A stretch of DNA of 41,198 bases, taken from IMG/VR virus record IMGVR_UViG_3300017967_003269, positions 1 through 41,198 of that record. One strand, written 5' to 3'. This document shows, one piece after another, positions 19,613-38,369 of this stretch; the stretch's first letter is position 1; each line of letters opens with the position of its first letter. The notes below the pieces were generated by a model. That model saw only the letters and a program-made list of their open reading frames with translations, searched no databases and was not told the DNA's origin. Both the position numbers and the translations under genes were made by a program. This DNA comes from a virus.

Positions 19613-20476
19613 ATGGCAACTTGTTTATACGCAGATGGTATTAGATTTCCAGACGGAACGTGCCAAAGAACACAAGGTGTTACCTCTGGGGGCATGTTTC
19701 AATGTTTTAATACATGCTCAGTGTGTAACGGTCCGCACGGATGTCGAGCGCACTGCGGACGTTGCGGAAGTTGGTCGGCACCAACGTGTGCATCAGAGAT
19801 AACATTTGAAGTATGGAGTGGCGGCGGCTCGGGAGCAGGCCAATGTTGTAGAAACTGTTTCTGCGACATTGCAAGTTGTGGCGCTTATGCTGGATATTAT
19901 GGTCGGAAGACTATTAGAAGAATTGATGGACAGTTTGTACCAGGATGTAGTTACAACTACTGTGTAGGAGCAGGCGGCAATGGTACAACCAATAACGGTT
20001 GTGGGTGTTTTACGGCTTGTTGTGATGCACCAAGAGGATGTGGTAGTTGGTTTAGCGGATCGGGTATATGTTGCGGATGTGTACCGGGCGGAAGAGGCGG
20101 ATACAATCTATATTGTGTATGCTTCTGTATCAACCAAGGTAACAGAAGTGAAGGCATGTGTAACTTAGGACTATGTATTGGTTGTAAATGGGATTTTGTT
20201 GACTTAGGTAACGAATCTTATTTTAACAGATACAGATCAAACATGAACTGTGGTTCACGAGCAAGTGCTACATCAGAATCATGGGGTATTAAAAATAGAC
20301 ACGAATATGCTATGCAGACAGGTACTAAGTACTGCGGTTGTACAAATTGTTGTAAAGGATTTAGACAAATTGCCAAGGCAGGGTCAAATCTAATTAAAGC
20401 AACGTGTGGACAGGATTTAGGAAACTGTAGAGGTACACCTGGAAATCCTGGACTAGTAAGAATTACTTGGAGATAA
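19613..20476 (+). CDS. Cysteine- and glycine-rich putative adhesin (287 aa, 37 Cys)
   Basis: ATG directly after the previous stop, with GGAGAGG inside the previous gene's end. I count 37 cysteines in 287 residues (13%), many as CC, CxC or CxxC, with no secretion signal. The N-terminus YADGIRFPDGTCQRTQG resembles the F.DGT.Q.T element of marine phage fibres. Residues ~62-130 fit the Gly_rich_2 type fold of phage receptor-binding proteins (ITFEVWSGGGSGAG, then GYYGRKTIRR..G.FVPGCSYNYCVGAGG), with cysteines set into the glycine loops. The end PGNPGLVRITWR also matches that fold. I infer a tip adhesin served by the S74 fibre before it, analogous to T4-type gp38. Metal binding or disulfide bonding of the cysteines is open. 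Confidence 0.75.
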   Translation: MATCLYADGIRFPDGTCQRTQGVTSGGMFQCFNTCSVCNGPHGCRAHCGRCGSWSAPTCASEITFEVWSGGGSGAGQCCRNCFCDIASCGAYAGYYGRKTIRRIDGQFVPGCSYNYCVGAGGNGTTNNGCGCFTACCDAPRGCGSWFSGSGICCGCVPGGRGGYNLYCVCFCINQGNRSEGMCNLGLCIGCKWDFVDLGNESYFNRYRSNMNCGSRASATSESWGIKNRHEYAMQTGTKYCGCTNCCKGFRQIAKAGSNLIKATCGQDLGNCRGTPGNPGLVRITWR

Positions 20477-21337: not shown

Positions 21338-21368
21338 AAAAGGCTGTATATTTGTACAGCCTTTTTTT
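21338..21368 (+). terminator. Rho-independent terminator after the fibre cluster
   Basis: Stem AGGCTGTA (21341-21348) pairs with TACAGCCT (21355-21362) around a 6-nt loop, followed by six more T. Preceding A residues extend the stem. It separates the fibre genes from the sugar genes. Confidence 0.88.
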
Positions 21369-21404: not shown

Positions 21405-21412
21405 TATAAATA
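21405..21412 (+). promoter_or_regulatory. T4-type late promoter TATAAATA
   Basis: Perfect match to the T4 late octamer TATAAATA, 26 nt before the ATG at 21439 and 36 nt after the terminator's last T. It would drive the glycosyltransferase, carbamoyltransferase and oxygenase genes late in infection. Confidence 0.75.
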
Positions 21413-21438
21413 TTTTGTAATTACAAAAAGGTATCTTA

Positions 21439-22419
21439 ATGACTAGATCTACAGCATTCTTTATTAACGGCGGTGCCGGTCGTGTTATAACCTCAATTCC
21501 AGCACTTGAACTATATGAAAAAGAAAATCCAAATGACGATTTTATTATTGTTTGCGAAGGCGGAACTGACTTTTATAAAGGACATCCTACACTTCATAGA
21601 CGTGCATACGATGTATGGCATAAAGGATTATTTGAACAATATATCAAAGATAGAAATTGTGTAAGTCCAGAACCATATCGTATATGGGAATATTATAATC
21701 AAAAATGTAGTCTTGCACAAGCATTTGATATTGAAATTAATAAACAAGGCATAAGAGAAGTACCTATACCTAACATATATCTTAATAAATCAGAACAGCA
21801 TAATGGAAAATCAGTAGTACAAGAAGTAAAAGATGTTACTGGATTTAATAAAGTTATTGTAATACAACCATTTGGCCGAGGTGTTGAAGAAAGTTTAATA
21901 GACCAAACATCTAGAAGTTTTAGAGCAGAAGATATGCTTGATATTGCTAATCAACTGAAACAAGATTATGGTGTTATTATTATGAGTGAACTTCCCTTAC
22001 CATTTTATAATGAAGACGGCGATAACACTCCGCTTGCACAACCTCAAATACCGGATATTAGAATATGGGCAGGTGTAATAGAAGCAGCTGATCATTTCTT
22101 AGGTTGTGACAGTGTAGGACAACATATTGCTAAATCTTTAGGAAAACAAGCAACTGTAATTACAGGAAGTACTTTTCCTATCAACACAACTTATCTAAAT
22201 GACAAAGATATAACAGTGTTTGATATAGGAGACGGTAGAAGAGTTTATAGTCCTATACGTGTAAGTACTGAAGAAGAACCAGATAGATTAAACGATAAAG
22301 CAATGAATATGAGCAAAGAACATATTAATGATATCGTAAAATCAATTAAACAAACTGTAGGTAAGTCTATTAAGACTGCACCTAAACAACCAAAAGAAAA
22401 TTTCGGAGAAAATGTATGA
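21439..22419 (+). CDS. Glycosyltransferase family 9-like (heptosyltransferase-type) protein
   Basis: 326 residues. It resembles GT9 / ADP-heptose:LPS heptosyltransferases: an N-terminal Rossmann start with a Gly-rich turn (FINGGAGRVITSIPALELY, residues ~8-26) and a C-terminal donor-binding segment AADHFLGCDSVGQHIAKSLG (residues ~215-234). The latter matches the GT9 pattern of a hydrophobic run, (C)DS, Gly/H, A..LGK, then a Gly-Ser/Thr-x-Pro turn (ITGSTFP). GT9 enzymes move a heptose from ADP-heptose to an acceptor. The sugar and acceptor cannot be read from the sequence, but the neighbouring - strand operon makes an ADP-heptose-type donor. The C-terminal ~60 residues are charged and low in complexity. 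The last 4 nt overlap the next gene (ATGA), so translation is coupled. Preceded by AAAAAGG and a late promoter. Confidence 0.72.
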   Translation: MTRSTAFFINGGAGRVITSIPALELYEKENPNDDFIIVCEGGTDFYKGHPTLHRRAYDVWHKGLFEQYIKDRNCVSPEPYRIWEYYNQKCSLAQAFDIEINKQGIREVPIPNIYLNKSEQHNGKSVVQEVKDVTGFNKVIVIQPFGRGVEESLIDQTSRSFRAEDMLDIANQLKQDYGVIIMSELPLPFYNEDGDNTPLAQPQIPDIRIWAGVIEAADHFLGCDSVGQHIAKSLGKQATVITGSTFPINTTYLNDKDITVFDIGDGRRVYSPIRVSTEEEPDRLNDKAMNMSKEHINDIVKSIKQTVGKSIKTAPKQPKENFGENV

Positions 22420-24209
22420 GTATGTGGATAGCAGGACTTGCTAGAGGACACAATGCTGGAGTATGCTTATTAAAAGATGGAGAAATAGTTTTTTCTATTG
22501 AAGAAGAAAGACTTACTCGTAAAAAGTACGATGGAGGACCGTTAGCGTCAATTCTAAAAATTTTAGAGTATACAGACAAACTTGATTACATGGTAATATC
22601 GCATACACAAACTCTTGCAGAAACAGCTGGTAGAGTTGATTATACTGCTGAGGATATTTACACAGGTCTTGCTAGAAAAGTAGGTCTAATAGAGTATTCT
22701 CCGCCTTGGGATCCGCATCCACAAGTAATCGATGTATCTAAACTACATCATAAAATGCATGCCAGTTTAGCATTTTATAGAAGTGGCTTTGAAGAAGCAG
22801 TAGCAGTTATTGTTGACGGTGCTGGGACTTGTTTTGATTTAGAAGTTGACGGATCTATAAAACATATGTGGGAAACTGAAACATTATATAAATGTACATA
22901 TCCAGACAATATACAAACTCTTTTTAAAACTATGGGTTGTAGAGACTATCTGCCAACAGCAGAACTTACAGCACCTGATCAAGATATTTTTGGTAAAGAA
23001 ATAGGTAAATTTTCAACTTCGTTATCTGATAGAGCAGGCATTGTTAAGTGTTATGAGGGTGTAACAGAATACTGTGGCTGGGATGCCATTGAAGCTGGAA
23101 AAACTATGGGATTATTTCCATATGGTAAACCTAATGATTTAATTCCTCCGGTATTTGATCCATATACTGATTTGCCTATTCCAGTAAGTAATAGAAGTTT
23201 ATTTGTTCCGAGATATCCAAACGGTTCTATTCTAAACGAAAATTTATATAGTTATTTGATTGACAAAGGTGAAGAAGATGCAACACTATGCCAAAATAGA
23301 AGAGATATGGCATATGCAGTACAAGTAGAATCTCAAGCAGCGGTAACTCAACTAATAAAACATGCTGTTGAATCTACAGGAATTAAAAATGTTGTTATAA
23401 GCGGTGGATATGGGTTGAATTGTGTTGCAAATTATCATTATTTAAAAGAGATAGACAATGATATTAATCTTTATGTAGAGCCGGTTTCAAATGACGGCGG
23501 CACTGCAATGGGTGCAGCATTGTGGTTACATAGAAGTCTTACTAAAGATATGTCGATTGATTCTCAAGCTGAAACTGTTTATCTAGGACCAGATTATAAA
23601 ATTACAGAAGGTGATATCCAACAACTAGCAAAAAAATACTCTGCCGAAGTTACAGATGCTACTAATGAAGATGTTATCGACTTAATTACAAACAAAAATA
23701 TTGTTACAATATTTCAAGGACGTAGTGAAAACGGCCCACGTGCATTAGGTAATAGAAGTATTCTTTATGATCCAACAGATCCTGACGGAAAAGATTTTGT
23801 AAATCGTGTTAAAAACAGAGAATATTTCCGCCCATTTGCAGGATCTATTCTAGAAGAAGATGTGCATGAATGGTTTGACTTGCGAGGTATGAAAAACTCT
23901 CCTACAATGATGTATGCTGTTAATTGTCAGCCCGGAGTAGAAGAAAAGATTCCTGCTATTATTCACGTAGACGGAACTTGCCGTATTCAAACTGTTAACA
24001 GAGAACAAAATGCAAACTACTATGATTTGATTAAAGCCTTTAAAGAAAAGACAGGTTGTCCGATTATTTTTAATACAAGTTTTAATTTAGGCGGCGATCC
24101 TCTAGTTGAAACTTTAGAAGATGCATTCCATACACTAGCAAAAAGTAAAATTGAATATTTGTATTTGCCAGAAAAGAAAAAGTTAGTAAAGGTAAAAAAT
24201 GAGTCTTAA
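22416..24209 (+). CDS. Carbamoyltransferase, NodU/CmcH/TobZ family
   Basis: 597 residues, close to the usual family length. The N-terminal YrdC/Kae1-like ATPase-type fold starts with GLARGHNAGVCLLKDGEIVF and EEERLTRKKYDGG (residues ~7-45), the hallmark of O-carbamoyltransferases. It continues with a metal-binding-type LHHKMHASLAF (~110), IVDGAGT (~132), ISGGYGLNCVANY (~329) and NDGGTAMGAALWLHR. The C-terminal domain has GRSENGPRALGNRSIL, REYFRPFAGSILEED and IFNTSFNLGGDPLVET. These enzymes transfer a carbamoyl group from carbamoyl phosphate to a sugar or antibiotic hydroxyl. Its coupling to a GT9-type gene suggests a carbamoylated heptose product, as with the 7-O-carbamoyl heptose of the Pseudomonas aeruginosa LPS core; that link is inference. 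It overlaps the next gene by 11 nt. Confidence 0.9.
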   Translation: MSMWIAGLARGHNAGVCLLKDGEIVFSIEEERLTRKKYDGGPLASILKILEYTDKLDYMVISHTQTLAETAGRVDYTAEDIYTGLARKVGLIEYSPPWDPHPQVIDVSKLHHKMHASLAFYRSGFEEAVAVIVDGAGTCFDLEVDGSIKHMWETETLYKCTYPDNIQTLFKTMGCRDYLPTAELTAPDQDIFGKEIGKFSTSLSDRAGIVKCYEGVTEYCGWDAIEAGKTMGLFPYGKPNDLIPPVFDPYTDLPIPVSNRSLFVPRYPNGSILNENLYSYLIDKGEEDATLCQNRRDMAYAVQVESQAAVTQLIKHAVESTGIKNVVISGGYGLNCVANYHYLKEIDNDINLYVEPVSNDGGTAMGAALWLHRSLTKDMSIDSQAETVYLGPDYKITEGDIQQLAKKYSAEVTDATNEDVIDLITNKNIVTIFQGRSENGPRALGNRSILYDPTDPDGKDFVNRVKNREYFRPFAGSILEEDVHEWFDLRGMKNSPTMMYAVNCQPGVEEKIPAIIHVDGTCRIQTVNREQNANYYDLIKAFKEKTGCPIIFNTSFNLGGDPLVETLEDAFHTLAKSKIEYLYLPEKKKLVKVKNES

Positions 24210-24822
24210 TGTAATTTTTGGCACACCTGTATATAAAACAAAAATGCCTAATCACGAAGAAATTTTAAAAGGATTTACTCCTTTTATTGAGTCTGAAGAT
24301 AATTTTGATCAAGCAACATTTTGGGATTGTGACTGTAGAACAACAATTCAAAATGATGAAAAAAATAGTTTATTTCCTTGGCATTTGTTTTTTAAAACTG
24401 TTTATAATTTAGTAGACGAATATGCATATTCTATAGGATTGTCACAAGAAGCATGTGAAAAAATGTACGGACAAGCATGGGCAAATAGATATACAAAAGG
24501 ACAATACCAAGAAGTACATTCCCATAGTGGTGGAAATTTAGTAATTAGCTGTGCATATATGTTAAAGTTACCACCAAACAGTGCAAGTTTTTCTTTTTAT
24601 GATTCTAGTTACAGTCATTTTCCGGTACATCTTGCACAATGCTTTACAAACAAACCGTTTATGGGAAGAAGAGTTACGCCGCCGCTAGAAGAAGGGGATA
24701 TTATTTTCTTTCCTGCTAGTTTAGATCATTATGTATCAACACACAAGGCTGATGAATTAAGATCCACTATTAGTGCAAATTTTGGAATAGCTATCGACGA
24801 GATAACCAATCAGCAAAGCTAG
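24199..24822 (+). CDS. 2OG-Fe(II) oxygenase-like protein (PF13759-type)
   Basis: 207 residues. ATG at 24199 lies inside the end of the carbamoyltransferase gene, with AAAGG just upstream. Residues ~93-200 follow the double-stranded beta-helix pattern of phage-type 2OG-Fe(II) oxygenases: QAWANRYTKGQYQEVHSHSG (first metal His pair region), a core strand ISCAYMLKLP, FSFYD, then EEGDIIFFPASLDHYVSTH with the distal His and the 2OG-binding Arg in LRSTISANFG. Such enzymes hydroxylate proteins or small molecules; the substrate here is unknown. Position suggests it modifies the product of the glycosyltransferase and carbamoyltransferase, or a virion protein. Its 3' end overlaps the convergent gmhB gene by 32 nt. 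Confidence 0.8.
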   Translation: MSLNVIFGTPVYKTKMPNHEEILKGFTPFIESEDNFDQATFWDCDCRTTIQNDEKNSLFPWHLFFKTVYNLVDEYAYSIGLSQEACEKMYGQAWANRYTKGQYQEVHSHSGGNLVISCAYMLKLPPNSASFSFYDSSYSHFPVHLAQCFTNKPFMGRRVTPPLEEGDIIFFPASLDHYVSTHKADELRSTISANFGIAIDEITNQQS

Positions 24823-25489
24823 ATAAATTATCAAAAACAATAGTTTTCTTTTTAATTTTTTGATTAGAAAACTTGTTAAGTTCTTTTAACGTTTCATTTC
24901 CGTAGCCTGTTTTTACTAGTACAGGCTTTGCTCCCATTTTAAAAGCAGCTTTTAGATCTGATATTTTATCGCCTACATAAAATCCTTTTGAAAATTTAAT
25001 AAAAGGAAATTCTTTTTCACATCTTTTAAACATACCGGTATTAGGTTTTGCATACTGGTCCCATCTAGCACTAGTTTCGCTATAATAAAGAGCATCTATA
25101 CTTGCACAGCCTGCTTCACCTAATAAATTAAACATATGATTATGTACAGTGTCAACATCGTTTTGAGTATAAATGCCTTTACTTATACCGCCTTGATTTG
25201 TTATAATAACAATTTTATGACCTAGTCTACGAATTTTAGCTATTGCTTTTAAACTACCTTCGATCGGTTCAAAGTCGTCTACCTTGTAGGTATAGTCTCC
25301 ACGATCAACATTAATAACACCGTCTCTATCTAAACCTACAACAACTTTTGGTGCAATATTATTCACAGTATCGTAGAATGGAATATTATATTCTTCTTCT
25401 GTTTTATCTGTACTGTATCGAATCGCAGATTCTTTTTTATCGGATACAGTGTTGTCTGATTTTTTATTGCTCCAGTTTATGCTATACAT
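24791..25489 (-). CDS. gmhB: GmhB-like HAD phosphatase (heptose 1,7-bisphosphate 7-phosphatase), zinc loop absent
   Basis: 232 residues. HAD motif I GLDRDGVINVDRGDY (residues ~52-66), motif II VIITNQGGISKG (~93), motif III Lys in YAKPNTGMF (~139), motif IV YVGDKISDLKAA (~160). This is the HisB-N/GmhB subfamily, which removes the 7-phosphate of D-glycero-D-manno-heptose 1,7-bisphosphate. The CxH...CxC zinc loop found in Escherichia coli GmhB just before the KP.PGM motif is missing: the segment YYSETSARWDQYAKPNTGM has no Cys or His. A ~45-residue polar N-terminal extension precedes motif I and has no alternative Met. Last gene of the - operon, 1 nt after the cupin. The substrate is inferred from its neighbours. 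Confidence 0.82.
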   Translation of the reverse strand: MYSINWSNKKSDNTVSDKKESAIRYSTDKTEEEYNIPFYDTVNNIAPKVVVGLDRDGVINVDRGDYTYKVDDFEPIEGSLKAIAKIRRLGHKIVIITNQGGISKGIYTQNDVDTVHNHMFNLLGEAGCASIDALYYSETSARWDQYAKPNTGMFKRCEKEFPFIKFSKGFYVGDKISDLKAAFKMGAKPVLVKTGYGNETLKELNKFSNQKIKKKTIVFDNLSSFADWLSRR

Positions 25490-25490
25490 T

Positions 25491-25877
25491 TTATTCTTCG
25501 CTTAATACTTGACTGTCGCCGGGAATAATTCTATAGTTGTCTTCAACACTATCTGGAGTGCTAACTTCTGTAACACTTCCTTCTTTCGAAAGACAAATTA
25601 ATTGATGTGGCTGTAATGGAGGATTCCTCCAAACTTCGCCTTCATTAAGTTCTTTTTCATGTAGTTTTGAATTTTTTGTATCAATGTATGCAACCTTAAA
25701 TTTGCCGTTGTTTACAAACCAAGTTTCGTCTTTTTCTTTATGAAAGTGCATACTAGTTTTTGCTCCAGCTCTAGTAAACACCATAATTTTTCCGCAGTAT
25801 AAATCATTTGTGGCCCAAATCATTTCGTAGCCCCAACCTTTTTGATCTACACCTGACTTTCTAGTTGGCTGATCCAT
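25491..25877 (-). CDS. Cupin-fold protein, putative sugar(-phosphate) isomerase/epimerase
   Basis: 128 residues, a single cupin barrel. The motif GAKTSMHFHKEKDETWFV (residues ~38-55) supplies the His-x-His...Glu metal set and PPLQPHQLI (~85) the distal His. It ends with VTEVSTPDSVEDNYRI, as in mannose-6-phosphate isomerase-type and related cupins that occur in nucleotide-sugar clusters. It overlaps hldD by 17 nt and is followed by gmhB after 1 nt, so it is part of the same operon. No GmhA (sedoheptulose-7-phosphate isomerase) is present in the window, so this cupin is a candidate for an isomerase step, but that is speculative. Confidence 0.78.
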   Translation of the reverse strand: MDQPTRKSGVDQKGWGYEMIWATNDLYCGKIMVFTRAGAKTSMHFHKEKDETWFVNNGKFKVAYIDTKNSKLHEKELNEGEVWRNPPLQPHQLICLSKEGSVTEVSTPDSVEDNYRIIPGDSQVLSEE

Positions 25878-26679
25878 TTATATATTCCTCTACTGTTGTA
25901 AAATTAATTTTTACAATATTACTTAATTTTGAATTGTCTGCACATGTGTACTCTTGATATTGATTTGCTAAATGATCCGGCATCGGTACATATTTAATTT
26001 TTGCATCATATTTTTTAGCAATAATGTCTGCTATTTGTTGAAAACTTGTAGTAGTTCCTGTTCCTATATTATAAATGTCGGAAACATCACTAGATAATAA
26101 TTTTTTATGTGCTTCACATACATCGCCTACAAAAATAAAATCTCTTTTGTATTTGTCGCTGTTTTCAAATAAAGAAATAGTACCAGTTTCTTTTGCTTGA
26201 TTAGTAAATTTAGTTATAGGACTTGCTTGATGTCCTTTGTGGTCTTCTAAAGGACCGTATACATTAAAATATCTAAATCCTTGAACTATAATGTTTCTTT
26301 TTGAGAGTCCAGTAACCCATCTATCAAAAAGATACTTGCTCCAAGCATACGGACTTTGTGGTTGTTTTGGATCTTCTTCTTTAAACTTTTCGTATGGTCC
26401 ATATACACTTGCACTAGATGCATATTGAAAATTTACACCTTTTAGATTACATTGATTAAACAACCATTTTGAAAATTCATAATTTTGTAACATGATCTTA
26501 TCAACATTACGTTCAGCTGTGCTTGAAATAGCACCTAAATGAATAACCCAATCATAGCCTTCAACTTCAGGCAAATAATCAGCTTGCCATTCATATCCTG
26601 ATAGCTCGTGTTCGTCTTGTAATCTAAGAGTTAGATTTTGTCCAATAAATCCTTTGTGTCCAGTAATTAAAATTTTCAT
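25861..26679 (-). CDS. hldD: ADP-L-glycero-D-manno-heptose 6-epimerase-like SDR (HldD)
   Basis: 272 residues (E. coli HldD about 310). NAD(P)-binding GHKGFIGQNL at the start, HLGAISSTAERNVDKI (~48), YASSASVYGPYEKFKEED (~86) with the catalytic Ser region, YAWSK (~110; Tyr-x-x-x-Lys), FRYFNVYGPLEDHKGHQAS (~136) and RDFIFVGDV (~175), IYNIGTGTTTSFQQIADI (~200). The pairing of GAISST.E with RYFNVYGP.E.HKG is specific to the HldD/RfaD branch of extended SDRs. HldD converts ADP-D-glycero- to ADP-L-glycero-beta-D-manno-heptose. It overlaps hldE by 4 nt (ATGA). UDP-sugar epimerase activity cannot be excluded, but the neighbours support heptose. Confidence 0.85.
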   Translation of the reverse strand: MKILITGHKGFIGQNLTLRLQDEHELSGYEWQADYLPEVEGYDWVIHLGAISSTAERNVDKIMLQNYEFSKWLFNQCNLKGVNFQYASSASVYGPYEKFKEEDPKQPQSPYAWSKYLFDRWVTGLSKRNIIVQGFRYFNVYGPLEDHKGHQASPITKFTNQAKETGTISLFENSDKYKRDFIFVGDVCEAHKKLLSSDVSDIYNIGTGTTTSFQQIADIIAKKYDAKIKYVPMPDHLANQYQEYTCADNSKLSNIVKINFTTVEEYINGSAN

Positions 26680-27818
26680 ACAGACGCCTCTAAAATTTTT
26701 GTTGTACTGTAACCTTGTACTGTAGGTACAATATGCACAGGTGCTAAATCATGTCCTACAATTTCTTCTACAGTATAGTCTCCACCTTTAACAATTAAGT
26801 CTGGCTTTAGTTCTTTAATAAGCTCATATGGCGTATCTTCATGAAATACAATAACTTCGTCTACATACGGAATAAGTTCTAATTGTTCTCGTCTTGTTTC
26901 AAGATCGTTAAACGGTCTGTTGTCTCCCTTTAAGCGTTTTACACTACCGTCACTATTCAGTCCTACTACAAGTTTATCACCTAAACTGCGAGCTTCTTTT
27001 AGTAATGTAAGATGACCTTTGTGCAATACATCAAAACATCCGTTAGTAAAAACAATACGTTTATTCAAGTCTTTTTCAGTAAGAATATATGTACCTACGT
27101 GTTTTACACTTTCAGTTGATCCTCTATTTGCTAAATCTAATGCTTTTTGATAATCATACCCTTTAGTTAGCGCATAAACAAATGCAGCAAGAAAACAATC
27201 TCCGGCTCCGGTTACATCATTAACTTCTAAAGGTTCAGGTTGCGAAACATAACGTTTTAAATCAAATTCAGCAGTAGTAGTTTTACTAGAATTAGTGACA
27301 ATTATATTACCGTCCCATTTTTCAAACCCTAATTCTTTGTATTCTTTGTAATTAGGTTTTACTAACCAAGCCCCGTCATAACAACTAACGTGGCGTTTAG
27401 GATCTACAATAACTTTACAATCAAAACTATTAAGATGTGCAATAATATCTTTTGAATATTCTAATACACCTTTATTGTAATCGCTAAGAATAACATATTC
27501 AAAATTAGATAAATCTAATTTTTTAATATCATTGTAAATATCTAATCCGTTAGCATAACGATCGTCGTCTATTCTTGTAACATAATGGCCATCACAGATT
27601 ACACGAGTTTTTTCACTTTTTGGATCGTCGTATTCTAATAAAGTTGCATCGACGCCTAAACTTTTTAAGTTGTTATAAACAAGTCCTGCGCCACCAAGAA
27701 ATTCTTCTATACGATCCTGACTTACAATAGGTACAGGTGCTTCAGGACTTAACCTAGTCGAAGAACCAAAAATATACCTATCATTTATTAAATCACCAAT
27801 AACTAATACTTTAGACAT
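26676..27818 (-). CDS. hldE: HldE-like bifunctional heptose-7-phosphate kinase / heptose-1-phosphate adenylyltransferase
   Basis: 380 residues (E. coli HldE about 477). The N-terminal PfkB/ribokinase half (residues ~1-250) has EEFLGGAGLVYNNLKSLG, VDPKRH, VKPNYKEY and the catalytic anion-hole motif VNDVTGAGDCFLAAF. The C-terminal nucleotidyltransferase half (~255-380) has FTNGCFDVLHKGHL (HxGH), GLNSDGSVKRLKGDNRPFN, EDTPYELIKELKPDLIVKGG and the terminal GYSTTKIL. These match HldE closely. It phosphorylates heptose-7-phosphate at C1 and, after dephosphorylation, adds AMP. The kinase half is shortened by roughly 70 residues relative to E. coli, but the catalytic motifs remain. First gene of the - operon; a near-consensus sigma-70 promoter ends 5 nt before its ATG. 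Confidence 0.88.
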   Translation of the reverse strand: MSKVLVIGDLINDRYIFGSSTRLSPEAPVPIVSQDRIEEFLGGAGLVYNNLKSLGVDATLLEYDDPKSEKTRVICDGHYVTRIDDDRYANGLDIYNDIKKLDLSNFEYVILSDYNKGVLEYSKDIIAHLNSFDCKVIVDPKRHVSCYDGAWLVKPNYKEYKELGFEKWDGNIIVTNSSKTTTAEFDLKRYVSQPEPLEVNDVTGAGDCFLAAFVYALTKGYDYQKALDLANRGSTESVKHVGTYILTEKDLNKRIVFTNGCFDVLHKGHLTLLKEARSLGDKLVVGLNSDGSVKRLKGDNRPFNDLETRREQLELIPYVDEVIVFHEDTPYELIKELKPDLIVKGGDYTVEEIVGHDLAPVHIVPTVQGYSTTKILEASV

Positions 27819-27823
27819 AATTT

Positions 27824-27852
27824 ATTATACTACCTTTATGATTATTAGTCAA
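27824..27852 (-). promoter_or_regulatory. Sigma-70-type promoter for the hldE-hldD-cupin-gmhB operon
   Basis: On the - strand, TTGACT (27852-27847), a 17-nt spacer, then TATAAT (27829-27824). This differs from the bacterial consensus at one base. The -35 overlaps the stop codon region of the NUDIX gene, and the -10 ends 5 nt before the hldE ATG. Transcription would begin at or next to the start codon, so the AAAGG in the spacer would not be on that transcript. Confidence 0.65.
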
Positions 27853-28276
27853 GTAAATCTATTACTTCGATTACTGTTTTTAATTTAGTAATATTACTTT
27901 TTCTATTGAGAGTGCTTTGCAAACCTGAGTGTAAAGGTTTCGGCCATTTACTAAATTCTACCCAAGCAAATCCGTCATGCTCGTTATTAAGTTTAGGAAT
28001 AAAAATATCTTCGATAACGCAAAGATATGTATGGAACTGGAACTTAGAATCGTTAGATACAAATGTTTCTAAAGGAATAGTTTTCTTTATATTTATAGAG
28101 CCTATTTCTTCTTCAATTTCTCTGCGCAAACCTTCCCAGGGTGTTTCTAAACCTTCGTTAGTTCCACCAACTAAGCCCCAAACATTATTACGGCTTCCGT
28201 TTGCTCTATGCAGAAATAGAAACATTTTAGACTTTAGAGAATAAATTAATGCACCACTACAAATAATGTCTTTCAT
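27845..28276 (-). CDS. NUDIX hydrolase
   Basis: I place the start at the ATG at 28276 (143 residues, MKDIICSGALIY). Longer in-frame starts up to 28333 would overlap the gp15 gene, which stops at 28290. A complete Nudix box, G-x5-E-x7-REIEEEIG, spans residues ~48-70 of this form (GTNEGLETPWEGLRREIEEE and following). The fold start CSGALIY and the Arg-rich FLHRANGSRNNVWGLVGG are typical. It hydrolyses a nucleoside diphosphate linked to X; the substrate cannot be deduced. It is last in the gp14-gp15-NUDIX transcript, has no good ribosome-binding site (stop of gp15 11 nt upstream, likely coupled) and abuts the sugar operon. It could act on nucleotide sugars or on nucleotides. Confidence 0.82.
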   Translation of the reverse strand: MKDIICSGALIYSLKSKMFLFLHRANGSRNNVWGLVGGTNEGLETPWEGLRREIEEEIGSINIKKTIPLETFVSNDSKFQFHTYLCVIEDIFIPKLNNEHDGFAWVEFSKWPKPLHSGLQSTLNRKSNITKLKTVIEVIDLLD

Positions 28277-28289
28277 ACTAATAATTATC

Positions 28290-29714
28290 TTAGTATGTAA
28301 ACCTCCAAGAGCCATTTGGATATTCTCCTTCATAAGAGAGTATCCAATACTCGCCTGTCCATTTGTATTGTGTTTGTGTGTTTAGATTAGTTACAAATGC
28401 TTCGTTAGTTTCTTCACTAGCATCAAAAACAATGTGCCAGCGTGAACCGTCCCATTCTACAATATCATTTTCACTTGCTACAAAATCTGAGTTATCTGAA
28501 TTCTTCCATGCCAGAGCGCCATTAGTATTATTAGGATCACCTATACTACCTAATAATAAAAGTCTATTATTTGATTGCGATTGCATTGGATCAAATCTTA
28601 GTGGATCTATAATATAATCAACATATGTTTTGTCACCAGCAGGACCTGGTATAACAGAATCTGCTGGTAATGTTTCTGCATCAGGAGCATTTAGTATAAG
28701 TCGTGTTTCGTCTGTAGTATCAATACTATCAATAGTAAATACTATTTCTAAACCGTTTGCACGTTGTAATCGTAATTGTGTAATTCCAGGTTCAAATGTA
28801 AATGGTTGCGCAATGTTCCAAGCAGTCCATGTATCGTTTCGATTAACACCATTCTTTAATAATCTTGCAACACCATCAAACACTTCTAATCCATAATCTT
28901 GATATGTAGTTACTACTAATGCACTTTCATTAGTCAATGCTTCATCTGGTTGACTATTAACTTTGTCTGTTTCTTCGTTCTCTTTAATTTTTTGTTCAAC
29001 TAAACTTTGTGTGTAAGCAGTTTCGTCTATATTAACTTCTAATCCGTGATCTGCAAATACTGCTGTAATTATTTTACTAATAACTCCTAATTTTTTAACT
29101 TTTGCAGGAGGACTAATAAAGATAGGTGTTGTTAAACTAATCGAAGCAACATCAATTTCACTTTCAGTACCAGTTGGTATACTTCTACTACTAAAGTTTA
29201 TGTTATCTATATTTAAAACACTTAAACTAGTCCAATCGATATAATTGTCTGTTGTTTGTATTTCTAAACTAGGATTAAACAACATAAAAATTTGTTCAAG
29301 TATTTGTAATTTTTGATCCGTATTAGTAGTCCATATGTCTACGTTTACAGTAAGAGTATAAGGGGTTGGCATTATACGTTCTACTGTATAATTTTTACCT
29401 GCTTTATTTAAATATTCTTGGCCGTCTACATCATATGCACGTTCTCTAATGTTTAGCTTATTAACATAACTGCTATCTGCTAGACGTGAAGTATCCATTT
29501 CTAGTCCGGTTATATACACAGCCATTCTTGGTGCGCTAGGAATTTTATTTTCAGAATTATCTCTAAGGATACTTCCTACTTGTCTTGTTAAGTCGCCGTA
29601 TGTAACTGGAACTTGTACTAGTCTACCCTTACCGTCTTTATAACTAAATTGTCCAAACAATCTAACTATTTGTGTAAGATATCTACGTATTTGTCCATCA
29701 TAAAAATGTTGCAT
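28290..29714 (-). CDS. gp15: gp15-like tail completion / sheath stabiliser protein
   Basis: 474 residues against about 270 in T4. The N-terminus FYDGQIRRYLTQIVRLFGQF followed by RLVQVPVTYGDLTRQV aligns with T4 gp15 (FYNSSFRRYATLMGDLFSN and VRVPITY-type). PYTLTVNVDIWTTNTDQKLQ with ILEQIFMLFNPSLEIQ matches its next conserved part. In T4 gp15 caps the tail tube and sheath and joins the tail to the neck. The extra C-terminal ~220 residues hold a Gly/Trp-rich beta region (ENDIVEWDGSRWHIVFDAS, QYKWTGEYWILSYEGEY) also seen in other virion proteins here. Start codon and gp14 stop share one base (TAATG). It lies on the opposite strand to gp13 and gp18. Confidence 0.85.
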   Translation of the reverse strand: MQHFYDGQIRRYLTQIVRLFGQFSYKDGKGRLVQVPVTYGDLTRQVGSILRDNSENKIPSAPRMAVYITGLEMDTSRLADSSYVNKLNIRERAYDVDGQEYLNKAGKNYTVERIMPTPYTLTVNVDIWTTNTDQKLQILEQIFMLFNPSLEIQTTDNYIDWTSLSVLNIDNINFSSRSIPTGTESEIDVASISLTTPIFISPPAKVKKLGVISKIITAVFADHGLEVNIDETAYTQSLVEQKIKENEETDKVNSQPDEALTNESALVVTTYQDYGLEVFDGVARLLKNGVNRNDTWTAWNIAQPFTFEPGITQLRLQRANGLEIVFTIDSIDTTDETRLILNAPDAETLPADSVIPGPAGDKTYVDYIIDPLRFDPMQSQSNNRLLLLGSIGDPNNTNGALAWKNSDNSDFVASENDIVEWDGSRWHIVFDASEETNEAFVTNLNTQTQYKWTGEYWILSYEGEYPNGSWRFTY

Positions 29715-36422: not shown

Positions 36423-37049
36423 ATGGCAATCTCATCATTATCAAAAATTACAGTTCCACTAGCAAGCGGCGACAGTGCCGCTAGCCAGGGTCTGTTGATG
36501 CCGAAGCTCCAGTACCGCTTTAGGGTGTCGCTGGAAAACTTTGGAGTTTCAACACCAACAACGGAACTTACAAAACAAGTTGTTGACGTAACTCGTCCGA
36601 CAGTTGCATTTGAGCCAATGGAAATACATGCGTATAACTCAAAAGCATACTTAGCAGGTAAGCACACATGGTCACCGATTACACTAAACTTACGTGAAGA
36701 CGTGAACAATGCTGTACAAAAACTTGTTGGCGAACAGCTACAGAAACAATTCGACTTTATGGAGCAGTCAAGCCCGGTTTCAGGACAAGATTATAAATTT
36801 ACAACACGTATTGAAATCTTAGATGGTGGTAACGGAGTTTATACACCAAATGTACTTGAAACATTTGAACTATACGGATGCTTTATTACAAATGCTAACT
36901 ACAACACACTAGCATATCAAAATAATGAACCAGTTACAGTTACATTAGAAGTCCAATACGACAACGCAATCCAAACAGATGCTGATGGTGGTATTGGTGT
37001 TGCTGTACCGAGGGGCAGCGGTAGTTTAATTACCGGCGGCGGCGCATAA
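36423..37049 (+). CDS. gp19: Tail tube protein gp19
   Basis: 208 residues. The order LQYRFRVSLENFG, TELTKQVVDVTRPTVAFEPM, IHAYNSKAYLAGKHTWSPIT, LREDVNNAVQKLVGEQLQKQ, FELYGCFITNANYNTLAYQN and VTVTLEVQYDNAIQ matches T4-type gp19, which stacks in hexamers to form the inner tube. It follows gp18 as in other T4-like genomes. Good ribosome-binding site. A strong terminator follows, which probably makes it an independently abundant message. Confidence 0.93.
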   Translation: MAISSLSKITVPLASGDSAASQGLLMPKLQYRFRVSLENFGVSTPTTELTKQVVDVTRPTVAFEPMEIHAYNSKAYLAGKHTWSPITLNLREDVNNAVQKLVGEQLQKQFDFMEQSSPVSGQDYKFTTRIEILDGGNGVYTPNVLETFELYGCFITNANYNTLAYQNNEPVTVTLEVQYDNAIQTDADGGIGVAVPRGSGSLITGGGA

Positions 37050-37130: not shown

Positions 37131-38369
37131 ATGAGTACTAACGCTTTTCGAGATAGCCTTGGAGGAAAACAAGACGGCATTACATTGCTTGATTACAACC
37201 ATGCGGCTAGATTATATACAAATCAAAATTTTAAATTTGCTCCTAAAACAAAGTTTCTTTATCATTGTTGGTTTGGAATCGATCCTGGGGTTAAAGATAT
37301 TAATCCAGGATTAATAGAGAAATATAATACTGAAATAGGACTACTAGTTAAACAAGCAGATTTGCCTAGATTTACAGCAAATGTTGAAACTAAAAAGAAA
37401 TATAATAGAACTAAGCATATTCAAACAAGTATTCAATATCAGCCAATAACACTTACATTTCATGACGATAATCACGGTGTTACTACTGCTTTGTTAGAAG
37501 CATATTATAGATGGTATTACGCAGACGGCTGGCATGCTAGTCAGCCTGGAGCATTTAACAAAGCAGGCGACGGAGATAACACTTATAAGAGCAGAGAAAG
37601 AAACCAATTTCGTTTTGGATTAGATAATAATTTAAGTGTTCCGTTTTTTAAAAGAATACAGTTATCTCAAATTGCAAGAACTCAATACACAACTTACACA
37701 TTAGTAAATCCGATTATTACAAATTGGGAACATGATTCTGTTGATAATTCCGATGGCAGCGGCATGATGCAAAATACTATTACAGTACAATACGAAGCAG
37801 TGCATTATAGTAGAGGTACTGTTCAAGTAGGACCCGATGGCGATCCTATAGCATTTGGATTTGCACACTATGACTCTTTTCCAAGTCCACTAGCTAATAT
37901 TAATACAACAACACAATTAGATCCAAATGATGTATCAGTTAGAACACCGCCTGCTTCATTTGAAACTAATATTGGTAATAGAACAGAAGGGACTAATACG
38001 TTTCCGACATCAGTAAGCAATCCTTTGCTTAGTAGCATTTCTACAGTAACAAATACAGACGACATTGGAGGTATAAGTGATATAATTATACCTAAAACAC
38101 AAGGTGCCGATGGCGCACAAAACATTGTATCTTCTTCACCGACTACAATTACAACAAATAGTACAGCAGCCAGAAATGTAAATGTAACAGCGCAATCATT
38201 ACAAAATAATCCTGCAAAATTAGATTCGTTAGCAATACAACAATTTAAAGGTACTTTCTTAAGCACTGGTGGTAATGGAATAAATGATTTAATTAGTGCT
38301 TGGAATGCACTTCCTGAAACAGAAAAAGAAGCATACAGAAAAGAAGTCTTAGAAGGTACAAGACAATGA
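37131..38369 (+). CDS. Tail-tube-fold virion protein, possibly baseplate/tube-initiator type (412 aa)
   Basis: 412 residues. Residues ~60-150 (FLYHCWFGIDPG, GLLVKQADLPRFTANVETKK, YNRTKHIQTSIQYQPITLTF, LLEAYYRWYYADGW) and ~180-245 (FFKRIQLSQIARTQYTTYTL, NPIITNWEHDSVD, ITVQYEAVHYS) follow the pattern of gp19-like tube domains also found in T4 gp48 and gp54. The last ~160 residues are low-complexity Ser/Thr/Asn, then a short helix (ETEKEAYRKEVLEG). Being next to gp19, it may cap or start the tube at the baseplate; I cannot decide between gp48- and gp54-like. It overlaps the next gene by 4 nt. The transcript is probably leaderless. Confidence 0.72.
   Translation: MSTNAFRDSLGGKQDGITLLDYNHAARLYTNQNFKFAPKTKFLYHCWFGIDPGVKDINPGLIEKYNTEIGLLVKQADLPRFTANVETKKKYNRTKHIQTSIQYQPITLTFHDDNHGVTTALLEAYYRWYYADGWHASQPGAFNKAGDGDNTYKSRERNQFRFGLDNNLSVPFFKRIQLSQIARTQYTTYTLVNPIITNWEHDSVDNSDGSGMMQNTITVQYEAVHYSRGTVQVGPDGDPIAFGFAHYDSFPSPLANINTTTQLDPNDVSVRTPPASFETNIGNRTEGTNTFPTSVSNPLLSSISTVTNTDDIGGISDIIIPKTQGADGAQNIVSSSPTTITTNSTAARNVNVTAQSLQNNPAKLDSLAIQQFKGTFLSTGGNGINDLISAWNALPETEKEAYRKEVLEGTRQ

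Follow-up and report, generated by a model that had tools for sequence, protein, structure and literature searches.

A phage heptose-synthesis cassette in which a cupin probably takes the place of GmhA

A virus record of 41,198 bases from IMG/VR (IMGVR_UViG_3300017967_003269; the window, meaning this whole stretch of DNA) contains, between positions 21405 and 27852, homologues of the ADP-heptose enzymes HldE, HldD and GmhB together with a cupin, a GT9-like glycosyltransferase (GT), an O-carbamoyltransferase and a 2-oxoglutarate (2OG)-Fe(II) oxygenase family protein. GmhA, the first enzyme of the E. coli pathway, is missing from this set. We consider it quite likely that the cupin replaces GmhA as sedoheptulose-7-phosphate isomerase, and probable that the phage carries a heptose pathway in this cassette, in which the first-step isomerase is the cupin. 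We infer the cupin reaction from family memberships, folds, gene order, conserved active-site residues, gene fusions and the exclusion of GmhA beside the kinase, all of which were computed. If the cupin is this isomerase, annotation has overlooked a second, unrelated solution to a textbook step of a bacterial surface-sugar pathway. This would explain heptose synthesis in genomes that have a heptose kinase and no GmhA, as well as how phages complete the heptose route unaided.

Heptose enzymes without GmhA

A sequence-only reading of this DNA had described the seven genes as a set for heptose synthesis, transfer and carbamoylation. All seven open reading frames (ORFs) are present on the strands it gave, and profile searches support its assignments of hldE, hldD, gmhB, cupin, carbamoyltransferase and 2OG oxygenase, several of them with scores under curated cut-offs. 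Five of these six profile-supported families are also backed by solved relatives, in a comparison that covered all but the 2OG oxygenase.

HldE (26676-27818, minus strand) is compact, with 380 amino acids (aa) against 475-477, and holds both domains in one chain, the kinase at about residues 1-248 and the adenylyltransferase at about 249-380. It matches PRK11316 in four stretches (279.6 bits, E 4e-83, under the full-length cut-off of 521), TIGR02198 with 171 bits (cut-off 345) and TIGR02199 with 163 bits (cut-off 181.5), and its relatives in the Protein Data Bank (PDB) include 5x9q and 4e84. The HldD-like ADP-heptose 6-epimerase (25861-26679, minus strand, 272 aa) lacks about 25 residues near its N-terminus. 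Its best model is TIGR02197 (240.1 bits, E 3.1e-71, below the cut-off of 274.6), and its YxxxK and HKG motifs are aligned with those of PDB 1eq2 (E 4.8e-47). The GmhB-like HAD phosphatase (24791-25489, minus strand, 232 aa) matches PRK08942 below cut-off (137.3 bits, E 3.9e-40, cut-off 178), and its nearest PDB chains are heptose-1,7-bisphosphate phosphatases (4pnh, E 5e-23). Scores below the equivalog cut-offs probably reflect phage divergence and shortening within the same families.

The earlier proposal that the phage makes heptose stands as far as the HldE, HldD-like and GmhB-like enzymes go, while the absence of GmhA had gone unnoticed and the cupin was merely listed. Neither a SIS domain nor TIGR00441 finds a match in the window at E 0.1, and the model of the cupin is all-beta and matches cupins. 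The GmhA search initially relied on PF13580 (SIS_2) as its sole probe; this proved too narrow, since a divergent SIS protein is hardly seen by Pfam, and the negative test was redone with TIGR00441. In virus records behind heptose or cupin loci, TIGR00441 matched one of 39 records in a first list and none of 40 in a second; the lists are subsets of the viral loci, share G005 and G008, and consist mostly of fragments. It found nothing over the full records of P-SSM2, P-TIM68, S-CAM1, S-SM2 and Bellamy. The lone viral match is a divergent GmhA-like SIS protein of SynMITS9220M01 (47 bits), which follows a GHMP kinase in a second kinase cassette. An E. coli GmhA query missed this protein in the phage collection and is hence insensitive, as is the equivalent search of loci L004-L225, which returned nothing. 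With no GmhA in the set, the cupin most likely fills the gap.

Phage annotation obscures the missing isomerase. A "phosphoheptose isomerase" is named in P-SSM2, P-TIM68 and S-CAM1, and we rejected it as a GmhA candidate because it has, by eye, a HAD-like DxDGT motif and no SIS match; the mislabelled small HAD-like proteins lie at 15113-15457 of L001, 14272-14610 of L002 and 13086-13409 of L003. The cupin itself is named cysteine dioxygenase or nucleotidyltransferase in phage annotation, and its PHROG, 7851, carries the cysteine dioxygenase label.

The cupin: active site and genome context

The cupin (25491-25877, minus strand, 128 aa), the proposed sedoheptulose-7-phosphate isomerase in GmhA's place, matches PF00190 above cut-off (25.5 bits) and PF07883 just below it (26.7 bits). 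Across 55 relatives, three residues never vary (H46, K49 and H91) and two hardly do (H44 and E51). In sequence order, H44, H46, K49, E51 and H91 align to H75, H77, K86, E88 and H143 of TsLI, the Thermofilum D-lyxose isomerase (residue numbers of the aligned stretch were counted by hand). According to PMC8378251, the metal is bound by H75, H77, E88 and H143, while K86 possibly stabilises the enediol. The cupin thus has the HxH...KxE...H active site of the D-lyxose isomerase type. The cupin profile, 110 positions long, is matched almost from end to end by D-lyxose isomerases (11-101 and 10-102), and in a structural alignment of 50 rows the identity to the cupin is highest for D-lyxose isomerases, at 22-25% over the aligned part. 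E. coli ManC (CpsB) has a C-terminal cupin that aligns as well (E 3.6e-6). The conversion of sedoheptulose 7-phosphate to manno-heptose 7-phosphate is stereochemically that of fructose to mannose, one carbon longer.

The active-site residues are mostly kept where heptose genes are found. Two sets of viral loci were compared, one comprising the best 80 of 440 stretches encoding GT relatives in viral contigs (GT set), the other the best 80 of at least 583 cupin matches (cupin set), with four contigs common to both. The motif HxHxxKxE occurs in 112 of the 114 cupins of kinase-bearing loci (34 of 35 in the GT set and 78 of 79 in the cupin set, the four contigs being counted twice), and also in the one kinase-less locus of the cupin set. 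Loci of the GT set with no kinase in the flank keep it in three of five cupins, in records that have an adenylyltransferase elsewhere; it is lost in L030 (18476-18838) and L033 (13008-13367), whose records have no adenylyltransferase elsewhere. L026 holds one intact and one degenerate cupin copy (19759-20112). Among the 63 cupin stretches of the cellular set, 58 have the motif.

The company of the cupin points in the same direction. In the cupin set, 79 of the 80 viral loci have a kinase or adenylyltransferase, and 79 have an HldD-like gene. The phage collection contains 35 records with the cupin. An HldE-type kinase is found in 31 of them (among the matches listed); in the remaining four, which are absent from the 60 of 78 records listed, an HddA-like GHMP kinase immediately precedes the cupin. 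We read the latter context in Bellamy, SynMITS9220M01 and AG-345-E15 and presume it for the second Bellamy record. In the three records read, an HddC-like nucleotidyltransferase follows the cupin, as a weak match (60-62 bits against a cut-off of 300). The best model for the kinase is NF049969 (HddA; 279 and 287 bits, below the cut-off of 600), and the AG-345-E15 kinase was assigned by its 73-75% identity to those of Bellamy and SynMITS9220M01. Three HddA-like kinase queries against L004-L225 found nothing. HldE-type and HddA-like kinases are mutually unrelated; the two routes share the isomerase and phosphatase steps.

Among cellular relatives of the cupin, 23 of 62 lie within 3 kb of a heptose kinase, and some genes are fused. 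In the Woesearchaeota loci L135, L138, L140 and L142, a single ORF of 444-446 aa comprises kinase and cupin, and in L136 (7335-8846) a single archaeal ORF of 504 aa, immediately preceded by the kinase, comprises GmhB, cupin and adenylyltransferase. Phage-like cassettes also turn up in four contigs (L084, L085, L114 and L139) binned as metagenome-assembled genomes (MAGs) of Neomarinimicrobiota, Rhodobacteraceae and Euryarchaeota, possibly wrongly binned phage contigs.

A wider comparison used 279 genomes from the phylum to which G058 belongs, G058 being the genome that contains Woesearchaeota locus L135. Kinases called with TIGR02198 at E <= 1e-40 gave 69 matches in 67 genomes, 30 of which had scores above the curated cut-off, and a 75-bit line removed six weak matches to the cupin (28.8-44.2 bits) as well as nine to GmhA (25.3-31.4 bits). 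Within 3 kb of the 69 kinases there was a cupin in 16 cases, GmhA in 32, both in none and neither in 21 (Fisher p 7e-6, ignoring kinship). Without five genomes that also belong to the discovery set, the counts were 11, 32, 0 and 21 (p 3e-4 two-sided, again ignoring kinship). At the level of the 67 genomes, 17 hold the cupin alone, 34 GmhA alone and 13 neither. One open frame joins kinase and cupin seven times, and kinase and GmhA three times (G207, G227 and G358). The latter frames are 512-527 aa long and parallel the kinase-cupin fusions. The genome of L126 has one kinase beside the cupin and, 16 kb on, a second kinase that lies within 2 kb of a GmhA-like protein.

These data bear on the alternative that host GmhA, or host heptose 7-phosphate, is used and that the cupin acts later in the route or off its main line, for example as an epimerase or isomerase of activated heptose like the RmlC-type cupins of capsule heptose routes. 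Cupins generally act in nucleotide-sugar routes, and the best NCBIfam model of this one is the WbuC cupin, though at only 25.5 bits. The alternative does not, however, sit well with a cupin that accompanies both HldE-type and HddA-like kinases, that is fused to the kinase and, separately, to phosphatase plus adenylyltransferase, and that adjoins kinases without a neighbouring GmhA and never one with it (0 of 69). We regard it as improbable.

Several observations weigh against the cupin as GmhA's replacement. In the fold comparison, CapF and quercetinase score above the D-lyxose isomerases and KdgF at least as high as these; the fold search by itself is unable to separate cupin isomerases from other cupins. 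The top PDB profile matches of the cupin are quercetinases, MncA and oxalate decarboxylases. PF07385, the D-lyxose isomerase family, gives no match to the cupin of the window at E 0.01, and the P-SSM2 cupin scores 17.4 bits against it, under the cut-off of 20.8. The substrates of D-lyxose isomerases are unphosphorylated sugars. The motif also has exceptions beside kinases: the cupin of the kinase-bearing viral locus L215 lacks the second motif His, and those of the cellular loci L141, L143 and L144 lack the first. No heptose kinase lies within 3 kb of 39 of the 62 cellular relatives, some of them with full flanks (L086, L087, L099), so that the cupin family may have other roles, wider than heptose. 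TIGR00441 has a match somewhere in 15 of 35 cellular genomes searched whole (whole-genome GmhA searches covered 37 of the 62 cellular loci with PF13580 and 35 with TIGR00441, in 35 genomes each), and three of the 67 genomes of the phylum comparison hold both cupin and GmhA. The kinase counts of that comparison take no account of kinship between genomes, and many records are fragments or incomplete draft MAGs.

The glycosyltransferase and its carbamoyltransferase partner

The GT (21439-22419, plus strand, 326 aa) has no Pfam or NCBIfam match, PF01075 included, and belongs to an unnamed PHROG (phrog_8954, E 3.6e-132); its P-SSM2 homologue scores 15.4 bits against PF01075, below the cut-off of 22. 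Since sequence comparison with WaaC and WaaF is weak, and a search of the GT profile against the PDB found no GT9 chain, structure prediction was needed to establish the fold. The AlphaFold2 model (pLDDT 86.9, pTM 0.87) has TibC, 3tov (a GT9 protein of Veillonella), WaaF and WaaC as top Foldseek matches. Structural Z scores are 22.5 for 3tov, 20.7 for WaaF, 19.8 for TibC and 19.2 for WaaC (18.7-22.5 for the GT9 rows overall); chains from plant NDH-PSI complexes also score 18.8-19.6, and the next group 11.7. As modelled, the GT has the GT-B fold of the GT9 heptosyltransferases. The GT9 assignment of the sequence-only reading holds at the level of the predicted fold, and lacks both a family match and the catalytic Asp: at the position of WaaC Asp13, the GT has Arg15, invariant in 36 homologues, in a weak and partial hhalign match (E 0.012). 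The Arg counts against the transfer of heptose by this enzyme. TibC is a protein heptosyltransferase whose structure was, according to its title, solved with ADP-heptose. On balance, we lean towards heptose as the sugar used by the GT.

The NodU/TobZ-type O-carbamoyltransferase (22416-24209, plus strand, 597 aa) matches PF02543 (84.9 bits) and PF16861 (201.1 bits), both above cut-off, and PDB 7xb6 (E 6.2e-57) and TobZ 3ven (E 5.9e-41). It is present in all 80 loci of the GT set and lies within 300 bases after the GT in 72. A heptose kinase occurs in the retrieved flank of 37 of these loci, 34 of which also have the epimerase and the cupin. Two counts argue against a tight coupling of the GT pair to heptose: the retrieved flanks of 43 of the 80 GT loci contain no heptose kinase, and those of just 8 of the 80 cupin-fetched loci contain both GT and carbamoyltransferase. 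As many loci are short, both counts overstate the separation of the GT pair from the heptose genes. GT records with no kinase in the flank, when searched whole, have an adenylyltransferase match elsewhere in 10 of 35 cases, of which two are doubtful (a 24-bit fragment in G131 and a match with an internal stop in G132). Tryptophan halogenases occur in 26 GT loci, 23 of them kinase-less. Where heptose genes are missing (L028, L054, L056, L066-L072 and others), the neighbours of the GT pair are often tryptophan halogenases, 2OG oxygenases, DUF6445 proteins and unnamed proteins roughly 200-300 aa long. The absence of the kinase from the flanks of many loci and the presence of halogenases and the like mark the GT pair as a separate module. 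The heptose genes are a second module, and the window joins both.

Another alternative is that GT, carbamoyltransferase and oxygenase genes are merely independent neighbours of the heptose genes and that the GT uses another sugar. The 43 loci with no kinase in the flanks, the adenylyltransferase matches elsewhere in just 10 of 35 records, the frequent replacement of heptose genes by halogenases, DUF6445 proteins or other oxygenases, and Arg15 all speak for it. On the other side, the enzymes closest to the GT in fold use ADP-heptose, many records are fragments, and the GT lies next to heptose genes in the window as well as in close relatives of the window, in P-SSM2, in S-CAM1 and elsewhere. 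We place this alternative clearly on the less probable side, at a chance still worth reckoning with.

A further alternative concerns purpose only and is compatible with the cupin pathway: the cassette may consist of ordinary lipopolysaccharide (LPS)-type auxiliary genes that alter the host O-antigen against superinfection, as has been proposed for the pelagimyophages. PMC7029224 describes rfaE and glycosyltransferases among LPS-type genes of these phages, usually in a host-recognition cluster, and proposes a change of the O-chain. This falls a little short of an even chance. It leaves unexplained the tail-assembly-chaperone-like gene that precedes the GT by no more than 800 bases in 65 of the 80 loci, and the match of the GT fold to TibC, which glycosylates protein. 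Whether the GT modifies a phage fibre rather than the host surface stands at about even odds. The GT-carbamoyltransferase pair is a concrete candidate for phage glycan decoration.

Proposed pathway, setting in the phage and known systems

Together, our data suggest a model in which the cupin would convert sedoheptulose 7-phosphate to D-glycero-D-manno-heptose 7-phosphate in place of GmhA, by a metal-dependent aldose-ketose isomerisation via a cis-enediol, as the literature proposes for D-lyxose isomerase. The kinase domain of HldE would then phosphorylate C1, the GmhB-like HAD would remove the 7-phosphate, the adenylyltransferase domain of HldE would form ADP-heptose, and the HldD-like enzyme would epimerise C6. 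The GT9-fold enzyme would probably then transfer the activated heptose, and either this sugar or the glycan it is part of may be O-carbamoylated, on a fibre protein or the host surface. Carbamoyl-heptose on fibres or the host surface is plausible. We are doubtful about the far-reaching combination in which the cupin is a new non-homologous isomerase family of viruses, archaea and bacteria and phages also feed a TibC-like protein heptosyltransferase and a carbamoyltransferase that decorate their own fibres with carbamoylated heptose.

In the window, the seven ORFs form two convergent runs that overlap by 32 bases where they meet. The plus-strand run ends with the 2OG-Fe(II) oxygenase family protein (24199-24822, 207 aa; PF13759, E 1.7e-13, 51 bits; phrog_81). 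As first proposed, the heptose-synthesis set lies beside the GT9-fold transferase and the O-carbamoyltransferase, between fibre and neck genes. Gene order is identical in L004-L008 (the GT itself is identical in L004-L007), the same apart from one or two inserted 2OG genes in L009-L021, and different in P-SSM2 and S-CAM1. The recurrence of the order in L004-L021 and of the families in P-SSM2 and S-CAM1 shows that the cassette is not a chance assembly. Megablast of window positions 19000-41000 against the phage collection gave no match.

The window is part of a T4-like phage, with structural genes that match those of T4-type myophages (neck adaptor Ad2, sheath stabiliser, sheath, two tail-tube proteins, fibres). 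Its tail sheath is closest to those of Phosso, Atu_ph07 and PA5oct-like phages (284-490 kb records), for which reason we rejected a simple cyanophage; from its relatives, the phage is probably marine. The two tail-tube-like genes lie in tandem (36423-37049, 208 aa, and 37131-38369, 412 aa).

Upstream of hldE lies a Nudix hydrolase gene (27845-28333, minus strand; PF00293, E 3.1e-13), which adjoins hldE also in L004-L021 and L064-L065 and whose membership in the cassette is uncertain. A promoter-like sequence before hldE (27824-27852, minus strand) has 11 of 12 consensus bases and overlaps the last 8 bases of the Nudix gene; it is the best of 32 found against 34.3 from shuffles, and so by itself is no evidence. 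The same applies to an 11-bp terminator-like inverted repeat (21338-21365, no strand) between a fibre-assembly-like gene and the GT, with three repeats found against 3.0 expected by shuffling. The tail-fibre-assembly-like protein flanks the cassette, and the tested member of its cluster has a tail assembly chaperone domain. Also upstream of the GT, a protein of 287 aa (19613-20476) contains 37 Cys and 50 Gly; its blast cluster numbers 174 members, spread over 71 of the 80 GT loci, and the representative that was tested has no Pfam match. Both small proteins are candidate acceptors or helpers.

In comparison with the E. coli ADP-heptose pathway, the window shares homologues of HldE, GmhB and HldD and differs in having a cupin instead of GmhA and a compact HldE. 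D-lyxose isomerases (TsLI, 2y0o, 3kmh) have the cupin fold, the metal ligands and the active-site Lys in common with the window cupin, whereas the identity is 22-25% and their action is on free sugars; we know of no genomic link between them and heptose. A literature search whose coverage omitted most subscription papers found no report of a cupin sedoheptulose-7-phosphate isomerase. TibC, WaaF and WaaC share their whole-chain fold with the window GT, which also has D-S-x-x-x-H in its C-terminal half as in GT9 (aligned to WaaF, weakly); they differ by an identity of 9-15% and by the invariant Arg at the Asp13 position of WaaC. TobZ and NodU share both domains with the window carbamoyltransferase. 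Among phages, the retrieved stretch of P-TIM68 contains the heptose genes and lacks this GT pair. P-SSM2 and S-CAM1 differ from the window in the order and strands of the heptose genes, in an HldE split into two genes, and in a HAD of 107-114 aa, labelled phosphoheptose isomerase, where the window has the GmhB-like gene. They resemble it in having the same families, with the GT directly before the carbamoyltransferase, the heptose genes adjoining and fibre genes beside them. As these phages carry the same set, the cassette itself is not new.

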